This document shows positions 15,672-50,341 of a stretch of 54,644 nt of DNA, piece by piece. The position numbers and the translations under genes are program-made. How positions within the stretch are numbered: the stretch's first letter is position 1; each line of letters begins with the position of its first letter. This DNA comes from Pelotomaculum sp. (GTDB lineage: Bacteria; Bacillota; Desulfotomaculia; Desulfotomaculales; Pelotomaculaceae), in assembly GCA_018435055.1 (NCBI GenBank), contig JAHDOA010000021.1:1-54644 (forward strand), in the 5' to 3' direction. Below the pieces are notes generated by a model. That model worked only from the letters and a program-made list of their open reading frames with translations, was not told the origin of the DNA and did not search any database.

Positions 15672-15866
15672 ATGGAAGATTGCTTTGCTTACAAACGAAA
15701 TAGCTGCACGGCCTTAAAGGTGAAACAATGCGAAGGCTGCAGTTTTTATAAAACCAAGGAGCAGTTTGAATTGGATCAAGAGAAGGCGCTGGAGCGGATT
15801 CGGAGTCTGGATGTGGAGAGGCAGGAACATATTTTTGAAAAATATTACGGGGGTGAAAAAGCATGA
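15672..15866 (+). CDS. Small cysteine-rich phage protein
   Basis: A 64-residue protein. The N-terminal half has four cysteines (EDCFAYKRNSCTALKVKQCE, then GCSFYKT), a probable zinc-binding knot common in Clostridial phage proteins found before the DUF1492 gene. The C-terminal half is a charged helix. AGGAGGTG lies 9 nt before ATG 15672, preferred to the in-frame GTG at 15663. It overlaps the next gene by 4 bp. Confidence 0.7.
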   Translation: MEDCFAYKRNSCTALKVKQCEGCSFYKTKEQFELDQEKALERIRSLDVERQEHIFEKYYGGEKA

Positions 15867-16294
15867 ATGCCAAGGAATATTTATCCCAAGCCCTATGGCT
15901 TGACCAGCGGGTTAACACCAAGCTGGAGCAGCTGCAGACACTGCGGGATTTGTCCATGAGGGTATCGGCCAACTTAACGGTGGAAAAAGTGGCCGGTGGC
16001 AATAATAAGAAAGGCCACATGGAAAACACCGTGGTTAGGATTGTGGATTTGGAGAAGGAAATCAAGAAGGATCTTGAACGGTCAATTGCCATCAAAGCCG
16101 AAATCATGAACGCCATCAGCCAGGTGGATGACCCCATTGGTCAAATAATACTGGAGATGCGGTACATTAACGGCAAAGGTTGGGACGAGATTTCCGGTAG
16201 CCTTAATTACAAGGACAGCTCAATCTTTAAAATCCATAGCCGGGCACTAAAAGAAGTCAACAGGATAAAAAAAGAGGGTAGTAAAATCCAGTAA
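15863..16294 (+). CDS. DUF1492 / ArpU-like late transcription regulator
   Basis: A 143-residue protein. The N-terminal coiled segment (AKEYLSQALWLDQRVNTKLE) is typical of DUF1492. The C-terminal part (ILEMRYINGKGWDEISGSLN, then SSIFKIHSRALKEVNRI) is a sigma region 4-like helix-turn-helix. Relatives switch on late gene transcription. Four 10-bp direct repeats cover its own stop codon and precede a -10-like box, so its probable binding site is encoded in its 3' end. GGGGGTGAAAA precedes the ATG. Confidence 0.8.
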   Translation: MNAKEYLSQALWLDQRVNTKLEQLQTLRDLSMRVSANLTVEKVAGGNNKKGHMENTVVRIVDLEKEIKKDLERSIAIKAEIMNAISQVDDPIGQIILEMRYINGKGWDEISGSLNYKDSSIFKIHSRALKEVNRIKKEGSKIQ

Positions 16295-16342
16295 AATGGA
16301 GTAAAATCCAGTAGAATCCACCTTCAACATGTGATATATTAT
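16281..16342 (+). promoter_or_regulatory. Candidate late promoter with four phased 10-bp repeats
   Basis: GTAAAATCCA, GTAAAATGGA, GTAAAATCCA and GTAGAATCCA follow head to tail from 16281 to 16320. The period is close to one helical turn, so all copies face the same side. TATTAT (16337-16342) lies 17 bp after the last copy and no -35 box is seen, as expected for an activator-dependent promoter. The DUF1492 protein is the obvious candidate activator. Confidence 0.55.
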
Positions 16343-16447
16343 AGATGTAAAGGCATGGAAAAATATCGAGAGCACCAGATGCTGTTTGCATAGGCCCTTA
16401 GGATAGATCGCCCAACGACTCCGGGGAAACGCAGCATTCTTGATAGC
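16343..16447 (+). other. Non-coding leader before the late genes
   Basis: About 100 bases without a credible gene lie between the late-promoter candidate and two tandem terminators. Short complementary segments are present (for example GATGCTG near 16377 with CAGCATT near 16432), so the leader may fold, but I cannot name the structure. Placement between a promoter and two terminators is what an antitermination leader would need. Confidence 0.3.
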
Positions 16448-16483
16448 AAGCCCTGAAGGGATTAAACCCTCGGGGCTTTTTCT
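16448..16483 (+). terminator. Terminator 1 in late leader
   Basis: AAGCCC-TGA-AGGG pairs with CCCT-CG-GGGCTT around ATTAAA, followed by TTTTTCT that ends directly at an ATG. Confidence 0.75.
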
Positions 16484-16500
16484 ATGCCCAAAAATAAACC

Positions 16501-16536
16501 AAGCTCTGACAGCAATTTGCTCTCAGGGCTTTTTTT
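16501..16536 (+). terminator. Terminator 2 in late leader
   Basis: AAGCTCTGA pairs with TCAGGGCTT (one G-U) and is followed by seven T that run into another ATG. Two terminators within 90 bp upstream of the late genes imply regulated readthrough. Confidence 0.7.
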
Positions 16537-16550
16537 ATGGAGGTGTCACT

Positions 16551-16832
16551 ATGAAATGTATATCCTGTCGCTTTGCTACCGTCGATAAGTCCGCCAGTGA
16601 TAAAGACTGGACGGCTTACGAGTGTGGCAATCCAGAGAGCGAGTACCATAAATCTTTAATTAACATATCCGAGGACGGTAAAAAACATAAACGGATCTCC
16701 TGGTCGGGCTGCGAACACGGTGAGAGGAAGGTGAAGCCAGGTGCCACGAAAACCATTAACGCCTTGTCGCCATCCCGGTTGCCCGGAGTTAACGGAAGCC
16801 AGGTTCTGCCCCAAGCACATGCAGGAATATAA
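16551..16832 (+). CDS. Hypothetical cysteine-containing protein
   Basis: A 93-residue protein starting at ATG 16551, with GGAGGTG 6 nt upstream. CISCRFATVD at the start, a further Cys in YECGNPES and one in SGCEHGE could form a four-ligand zinc site in the first 65 residues. The last 30 residues overlap the HNH gene in another frame and look unconstrained. It is a common type of small protein before phage HNH nucleases. Confidence 0.6.
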   Translation: MKCISCRFATVDKSASDKDWTAYECGNPESEYHKSLINISEDGKKHKRISWSGCEHGERKVKPGATKTINALSPSRLPGVNGSQVLPQAHAGI

Positions 16833-17124
16833 CCGGCGGTACAACCGGAAGGAAAGACCCAAGTATTCTAAGCAGCTTTATAACACTGCCCGGTGGCAGC
16901 GACTGAGGAAGCGGGTGTTGCTGGCGCATCCCCTCTGTGTGGAATGTGAACGTCAGGGAAGGATTACTCCAGCAACAGTAGTAGACCACATCCACCCTCA
17001 CAAAGGCAATCTGGAACTGTTCTGGGATGAAGGGAATCTACAGACTCTCTGCAAGCAGTGTCACGACAGCAAAACCACGAAAGAAGGCCGCTGGGGAGAC
17101 AAAAACAAGGTTTACAGTTATTGA
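16741..17124 (+). CDS. HNH endonuclease
   Basis: A 127-residue HNH nuclease of the type that assists terminase at cos sites in HK97-like phages. Zinc ligands and the active site are visible: CVECERQG, VVDHIHPHKG, then NLQTLCKQCHDSKT. An extra N-terminal CRHPGCPE/FCPKH zinc cluster is present. The GTG start at 16741 follows GAGGAAGGTG. Normally small terminase follows at once; here 7.4 kb of accessory genes intervene. Confidence 0.9.
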   Translation: MPRKPLTPCRHPGCPELTEARFCPKHMQEYNRRYNRKERPKYSKQLYNTARWQRLRKRVLLAHPLCVECERQGRITPATVVDHIHPHKGNLELFWDEGNLQTLCKQCHDSKTTKEGRWGDKNKVYSY

Positions 17125-50071: not shown

Positions 50072-50341
50072 GTAAGCGTCAAACAGGCTATCTATATCAC
50101 CAAAGGTCACCTTCGGCAAACCCCTTTACCTTTTTGTACTGTCTCCGGATCAACCGTTTAAACTCCGCATCCGATAGATTATCGCCCACATCGACACCAC
50201 ATTCCGGTAAGCGTCAAACAGGCTATCTATATCACCAAAGGTCACCTTCGGCAAACCCCTTTACCTTTTTGTACTGTCTCCGGATTAACCGTTTAAACTC
50301 CGCATCCGATAGATTATCGCCCACATCGACACCACATTCCG
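50072..50341. repeat. 135-bp tandem direct duplication
   Basis: Positions 50072-50206 and 50207-50341 are the same 135 bases with one visible difference (CGGATC versus CGGATT). The second copy holds the 3' part of the reverse-strand gene 50232-50507; the first copy is an extra gene end beyond the stop codon. Confidence 0.93.

Follow-up and report, generated by a model that had tools for sequence, protein, structure and literature searches.

How can the late genes of a prophage be transcribed if their promoter fires into a terminator? This question is raised by a stretch of 54,644 nt from Pelotomaculum sp. (GenBank assembly GCA_018435055.1, contig JAHDOA010000021.1, positions 1 to 54,644 of the forward strand), which we will call the window. 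It belongs to a genome of 3.28 Mb and the contig carries a prophage. A gene of the DUF1492 family ends there in a set of tandem repeats, and two predicted terminators stand between these repeats and the late genes. We consider it probable that the late genes need two things: a late promoter which depends on an activator and a control of read-through located in the leader of the transcript. The initial annotation of this region had suggested that both steps are controlled. We have added to it an RNA structure, its spread among genomes and a recognition code for the DUF1492 protein.

We will start with the repeats. Four 10-mers (GTAAAATCCA, GTAAAATGGA, GTAAAATCCA and GTAGAATCCA) are found in positions 16,281–16,320 with a spacing of exactly 10 bp, as had been annotated; two of them are identical, and the remaining two deviate from these at two positions and at one position. 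Of 30 period-10 comparisons in the 40-bp array 25 are matches, which is the maximum in the window, and none of 200 first-order Markov sequences of equal length reached its score, either at period 10 or at any period from 7 to 13. A double unit with up to three mismatches was found by a scan of the window only inside the array. These repeats are not due to chance. In the register with the –10 element that is found in relatives there are five units, which are putative operators: GGGTAGTAAA, ATCCAGTAAA, ATGGAGTAAA, ATCCAGTAGA and ATCCACCTTC (16,276–16,325, plus strand, as all features given below), the fifth being degenerate. The stop codon TAA of the DUF1492 gene (16,292–16,294) falls in the second of these five units, so that the gene contains only the first and part of the second of the four 10-mers. 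The array had been described as four operators inside the DUF1492 stop: it does span the stop, but most of it is outside the gene and five units are in register. The distance of 16 bp from its end to a TATTAT is also correct, but the relatives align on TGN plus TATATT, which in the window is an extended –10, TGA-TATATT, in 16,332–16,340. The predicted transcription start is near 16,347–16,349. No sigma-70-type hexamer pair was reported in 16,290–16,760.

The relatives come from a scan with the protein, which gave 80 viral loci, and from a second one started from a distant member, which gave 30; single loci are named with L numbers. The sequence of the units varies among phages (TGTCAGTAAA, GGGCAGTAAA, AGCCACTAAA, TGCGACTAAA, TGAGAGTTAA and others). 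Of the 62 rows which bear the leader described below, 54 preserve the length of the units, their phase and their distance to the –10 (counted by eye, redundant rows included); in L131 and L161 the register is one base off. The array is absent from the other eight: L162 and the leader copies L126, L129, L144, L151, L154, L155 and L156, which have no DUF1492 operator in front and some of which have lost P1, the closing helix of the leader. Many loci without leader RNA also have the array. Stop positions and terminators were counted in 45 non-redundant loci out of 64; L028 is among them, and the registers of L130 and L152 were used uncorrected. The activator stop ends inside the array or abuts it in 37 of the 45 loci, and it is at unit position 9 in 28 of the 43 loci where a position can be assigned. 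Stops in all three frames within 30-nt arrays are found in 14 of the 45 loci versus 4.1 in mononucleotide shuffles, a difference which is only suggestive.

The protein which would read these units is encoded in 15,863–16,294 (143 aa). It belongs to PF07374 (39.6 bits, with a curated cut-off of 21.5) and phrog_36, and we propose that it is the late activator. In its AlphaFold2 model, with a mean predicted local distance difference test (pLDDT) of 84, two long helices precede a C-terminal helix-turn-helix (HTH) formed by helices 107–114 and 118–142. Residues 118, 119, 120 and 123 are positions 1, 2, 3 and 6 of the recognition helix 118–142. We have calculated how much mutual information each column in the tail of the protein shares with each variable position of the operator in 63 of 93 loci (effective number 38.7); the other 30, many of which show no array, were left out, 29 by score and L028 as ambiguous. 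Columns of the recognition helix rank first for all five operator positions tested: column 59 (residue 119) for bases 4 and 3 (z 12.1 and 11.5), column 63 (residue 123) for base 2 (z 10.7), column 58 (residue 118) for base 6 (z 7.8) and column 60 (residue 120) for base 1 (z 7.0). Columns close to the C terminus score too, since the repeats themselves supply their codons. When overall protein distance is partialled out in 41 non-redundant loci, bases 2, 3, 4 and 6 retain their top columns. The permutation p of each top column, 0.0005, is the floor of 2000 permutations and is uncorrected for the choice of the best column. The clearest case is base 4 with residue 119 (r 0.71, next column 0.17), where Arg goes with C in 24 of 24 loci and Gln with G in 5 of 5. 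Base 6 goes with residue 118 (Arg with C in 9 of 9), base 2 with 123 and base 3 with 119. For base 6 the rule is clear only when residue 118 is Arg or Lys (C in 11 of 11); with Leu or Val both outcomes are seen.

The fold of the model points in the same direction. Many of the 50 matches listed by Foldseek are sigma factors or –35-binding domains, such as 5fgm (TMt 0.81). In a comparison with predicted viral proteins another DUF1492 protein came first (E 1e-8), and several of the matches carry the name sigma-70 region 4. A profile search of the PDB gave faint matches, with UPF0122 in the first place (E 0.11), followed by FliA (0.15), a sigma factor (0.4) and SigF (0.55). The 50 matches listed by a second structure aligner are mostly helical and cover residues 1–89, with no sigma chain among them, which excludes nothing. 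As modelled, the C-terminal HTH may resemble sigma region 4. The coevolution of helix and operator is strong indirect evidence that DUF1492 binds the operators directly. Together with the look of sigma region 4 and a published analogue (PMC13123087), it gives good support to the proposal, already made in the annotation, that DUF1492 is an activator which acts on the repeats. A family of unknown function becomes in this way a family with a predicted DNA code; if the code is true, late promoters could be predicted from the protein sequence.

Downstream of the promoter folding predicts two intrinsic terminators, in 16,448–16,483 (–19.1 kcal/mol) and in 16,500–16,536 (–16.5 kcal/mol); strict consensus terminator scans report neither of them. 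They sit in a 40-nt direct repeat with 73% identity. Both had been placed before any structural gene, and indeed the first ORF (open reading frame) with a Shine-Dalgarno sequence (by eye) after both of them starts at 16,551. A hairpin with a T-tract within 230 nt of the late –10 is found in 43 of the 45 non-redundant loci, versus 6.3 expected from resampled sequence. It is present in all 28 loci with the leader RNA and in 15 of the 17 without it, at about 93–148 nt and about 44–78 nt from the –10 respectively; these distances may be off by about 10, since the scan took the –10 to lie 39 nt beyond the scored start of the array. The RNA thus looks like a domain placed between start and terminator. 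The division into 28 and 17 loci follows the P1 test given below (28 and 15), with the two terminator-less loci L029 and L170 taken as lacking the RNA; the RNA labels of the terminator scan miss three RNA-bearing rows (L112, L001 and L004). The long form of the leader has a short U-tract, which is interrupted by C. Besides the first hairpin, the scan calls another one in the window, L164 and L074; in L136 and L187 this call is weak. Since a promoter-proximal terminator is so general, late transcription must pass it: as judged from sequence, the late promoters of these phages fire into a terminator.

The first terminator is part of a larger structure, the putative late-leader RNA, in 16,348–16,490. 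It matches our covariance model R1 with 106.6 bits, the window itself being among the 31 rows of R1. The closing helix P1 pairs 16,352–16,360 with 16,480–16,488, which are the end of the U-tract and the bases beyond it. Inside it we find P2 (16,366–16,371 with 16,438–16,443), P3 (16,379–16,384 with 16,432–16,437), P4 (16,395–16,402 with 16,421–16,426) and P5 (16,408–16,410 with 16,416–16,418), the last two with strongly conserved bases around. The 31 aligned leaders support all five helices and the terminator stem: 93.1% of the pair cells are formed, versus 89.7% in shuffled and 35–50% in slid alignments. Changes on both sides are found in 14 pairs (7.0 when shuffled) and in 50 cells (14.5 when shuffled). 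P3 is the clearest case, with compensatory changes in three relatives: these three phages have GCAUUG/CAAUGU and the others AUGCUG/CAGCAU. P1 beats shuffles in 27 of the 28 leaders with RNA and in none of the 15 without it, despite the fact that several of the latter have a T-tract followed by TATGCC (by eye). Full P1 needs bases beyond the U-tract, so that selection would act on transcripts which have already passed the terminator.

The leaders were collected with a pattern which gave 38 viral and 27 genome stretches, with 54 distinct matches; four of them (L125, L134, L140 and L141), judged by eye to be unrelated, were left out of the run with R1. For the alignment 46 distinct leaders were reduced to 32 rows, of which 30 were kept and L024 was added. 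L090, which has an internal deletion, and an empty row of L111 were left out and L013 was skipped; L002, L126 and L144 have no recognised P1 start, and the starts and ends of rows were trimmed by hand. Two other candidates were rejected. A leader peptide could be suggested by a short ORF in the window (ATG at 16,355); the inner ATG of the P3 arm is lost in L007, L024 and L120 by compensated changes, which indicates that the stem is kept and not a peptide. An alternative helix of GGUAU with AUGCU can pair in most sequences and shows no double change. Rfam has no match at gathering score in the window; the best one below threshold is IsrM, with 23.5 of 376 bits.

A search with R1 detected the leader in 10 of 200 relatives; among genomes sampled from the phylum it was found in 16 of 398, and among those from the order in 5 of 113. 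The genome sets overlap and each includes the genome of the window, and stricter filters may lose weak matches. This adds to the known sequences an RNA family supported by covariation. The genomes found with the leader pattern include Clostridium, Heliorestis, Alkalibacterium, Robertmurraya, Halalkalibacter and others. A blastn search with two leader queries found a single phage record out of 50,697, the same one both times, a scarcity which may be the reason why this RNA has not been studied. Plasmids gave one leader match of 30 bases. In one genome (G409) the leader is found twice, as L162 and L168, with the same score and 2.2 kb apart; the copies flank an ORF which by eye is similar to a transposase of insertion sequences. 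The duplicated stretch looks a few hundred bases long, and resembles insertions with long target duplications.

All these features can be joined in one mechanism. DUF1492 would activate the late promoter, as its published counterparts Ltr and Alt do. RNA polymerase would start near 16,348 and soon meet the first terminator, which is built into a structured leader of about 140 nt and is followed by the second one. The leader would then govern the amount of transcription which passes into the late operon. A complete P1 is possible only in read-through RNA, which suggests that a state after read-through is kept by selection: it might aid read-through in cis, seal the 5' end of the long late mRNA, or both. 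Activation is the well supported half. For read-through the indications are indirect, namely the general presence of promoter-proximal terminators and the place of the first one inside a covarying leader. The exact job of the RNA is inferred. A bolder form sees in the leader a new class of RNA, acting in cis in Bacillota phages, which enables the polymerase coming from the late promoter to pass the terminator of the leader as well as later ones, with P1 locking this state, and it ascribes to DUF1492 a readable code of helix and operator; we offer it as a tentative proposal, which may well not hold.

Several observations weigh against the mechanism. The protein of the window breaks the base-4 rule, as it has Ser119 with C in two of three scored units; Ser119 goes with C in 2 of 9 loci. 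Under distance control residue 127 comes first for base 1, with 120 and 123 next. The Foldseek matches to sigma domains have weak E values (0.06–1, with probabilities of 0.4–1.0) and none reaches 0.001. The shuffles of the leader alignment do not keep relatedness, and P1 has double-side changes in only 2 of its 9 pairs. On the minus strand 26 of the 45 loci have terminator-like hairpins as well, so that part of the terminator signal is not strand-specific. Finally, the DNA of an ordinary early-operon terminator would not differ from what is seen here. This last point leads to the main rival explanation, in which the hairpins end the early operon, late transcripts leak through them with the help of a strong promoter and the RNA fold has a minor role. 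Because the operators overlap the last early gene, such a terminator would have to sit downstream of the late promoter. Its presence with or without the RNA and the short, broken U-tract of the long form agree with this explanation, which leaves unexplained a covarying RNA of about 140 nt beginning at the predicted late start and the use by P1 of bases beyond the U-tract. We find it rather doubtful.

The general presence of the terminator would also fit a factor like Q, recruited at the promoter and remaining with RNA polymerase, which then ignores the leader terminators. Terminator-like hairpins stand between activator and terS also in phi11 (one, with RinA) and in TP901-1 (four, with Alt). 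A structured RNA is not needed by such a factor and no similarity to Q turned up, in searches none of which was aimed at Q; we think that DUF1492 is unlikely to act in this way. Slightly less likely is a function in trans of the terminated leader, as a stable small RNA, while the late genes receive only what is read through. Phage lambda makes a short transcript from its late promoter which may be compared with it. The closed fold, with both ends paired, and the conservation of leaders where genes other than HNH follow directly are in favour of such an RNA. Yet P1 needs bases which would be missing from the terminated RNA, and the operator-less copies L126, L144 and L154 have lost the 5' arm of P1 (by eye). 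A DNA packaging element (cos or a terminase site) instead of an RNA is suggested by the position just upstream of HNH and on the same strand as the terminase genes farther down; the compensatory changes in the stems speak against it, as does the record of Streptococcus phage SVep1, which ends between HNH and terS (a single phage, with its ends as deposited). This last explanation is very improbable. The activator-dependent promoter with control of read-through in its leader is the one which we prefer.

The surroundings are those of a prophage, with a helicase gene and one small ORF in front of DUF1492. The first late ORF (16,551–16,832, 93 aa) lies behind the Shine-Dalgarno sequence GGAGGTG (16,539–16,545) and has no Pfam or PHROG match. 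It is followed by the HNH endonuclease gene (16,741–17,124, profile match) and, farther down, by terS (24,506), terL (25,000), portal (27,528), a ClpP-like protease (28,690) and capsid (29,440). Between 17,165 and 20,787, after HNH, there are YafQ and AbiEi/AbiEii. Downstream of the leaders of relatives we have scanned 20 of 26 listed ORFs (in L017, L020, L022, L085, L094, L120, L148, L149, L156 and L162): 13 match families related to defence or toxin-antitoxin systems and 7 do not. The families are Abi_2, SocA/Panacea, PemK, RelB, RelE, ImmA/IrrE peptidase or HTH, and AbiEi below its cut-off. Judged by these matches, the DNA behind the leader seems to be a hot spot for genes of this sort. A tandem repeat of 135 bp, with two copies and 99% matches, is found in 50,072–50,341. 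The same genome has a second DUF1492 gene, L207 (G000:C66:31083-31370), with its own 10-bp array and a short leader, which has a terminator-like hairpin and lacks the structured RNA domain; R1 finds only one copy in this genome. By eye L207 follows the base-4 rule (Ser with G), it does not follow that of base 2 and it agrees with base 6 in half of its units. In L199 (PV036459.1, Ca. Heliusvirales) the order is as in the window: regulator, leader, a small ORF at the place of HNH, a ParB-like gene and a gamma-glutamyl cyclotransferase.

Activation appears to be of a known kind, judged by analogy with late promoters of the Ltr type. The ltr gene of phi13 carries at its 3' end repeats on which the promoter preceding the late genes depends, and their deletion abolishes P23; Alt of TP901-1 is cited in the same article with four imperfect repeats (PMC13123087). 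In the window activation would likewise use repeats located where the activator gene ends; repeated units are also found there upstream of the predicted start, as in Ltr. The repeats of phi13 have 18 bp. Those of the window are units of 10 bp, which follow the phase of the helix and hold a fixed register to the –10. The main text of that article contains neither the term 'DUF1492' nor the word 'leader' (PMC13123087). RinA of phi11 (L205, 1338–1480) is similar in its layout: two TGGCAGT boxes 11 bp apart stand just after the rinA stop, followed by a terminator-like hairpin (GGGTTGGCTGATTATAGCCAATCC plus T6) and by terS. Its leader is short and the structured RNA of the window is not seen there by eye. 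The C-terminal domain of the DUF1492 model may be comparable to the –35-binding region 4 of sigma factors and to Xpf (Pcf) of PBSX in Bacillus subtilis, for which a list gives the roles of sigma factor and positive control factor (PMC10141391). Unlike them, DUF1492 is modelled with two long helices before the HTH and its gene sits at tandem boxes; PF07374 has a profile match in B. subtilis, which might be Xpf. For the leader RNA we found no description in titles and openings of abstracts, a coverage which does not establish its absence from print, and it appears to be undescribed. Its place can be compared with that of tR' in phage lambda, the phage of Q, where transcription from the late promoter meets a terminator ahead of every late gene. 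The order of promoter and terminator is the same; the window differs by a promoter which is predicted to depend on an activator and by the structured RNA. A conserved RNA fold in front of a long operon is also found in the put RNA of HK022 and in the EAR element of Bacillus. The leader of the window likewise precedes a long operon, but it encloses its own terminator and has no gathering match in Rfam; by analogy with put and EAR, it may have a role in read-through.
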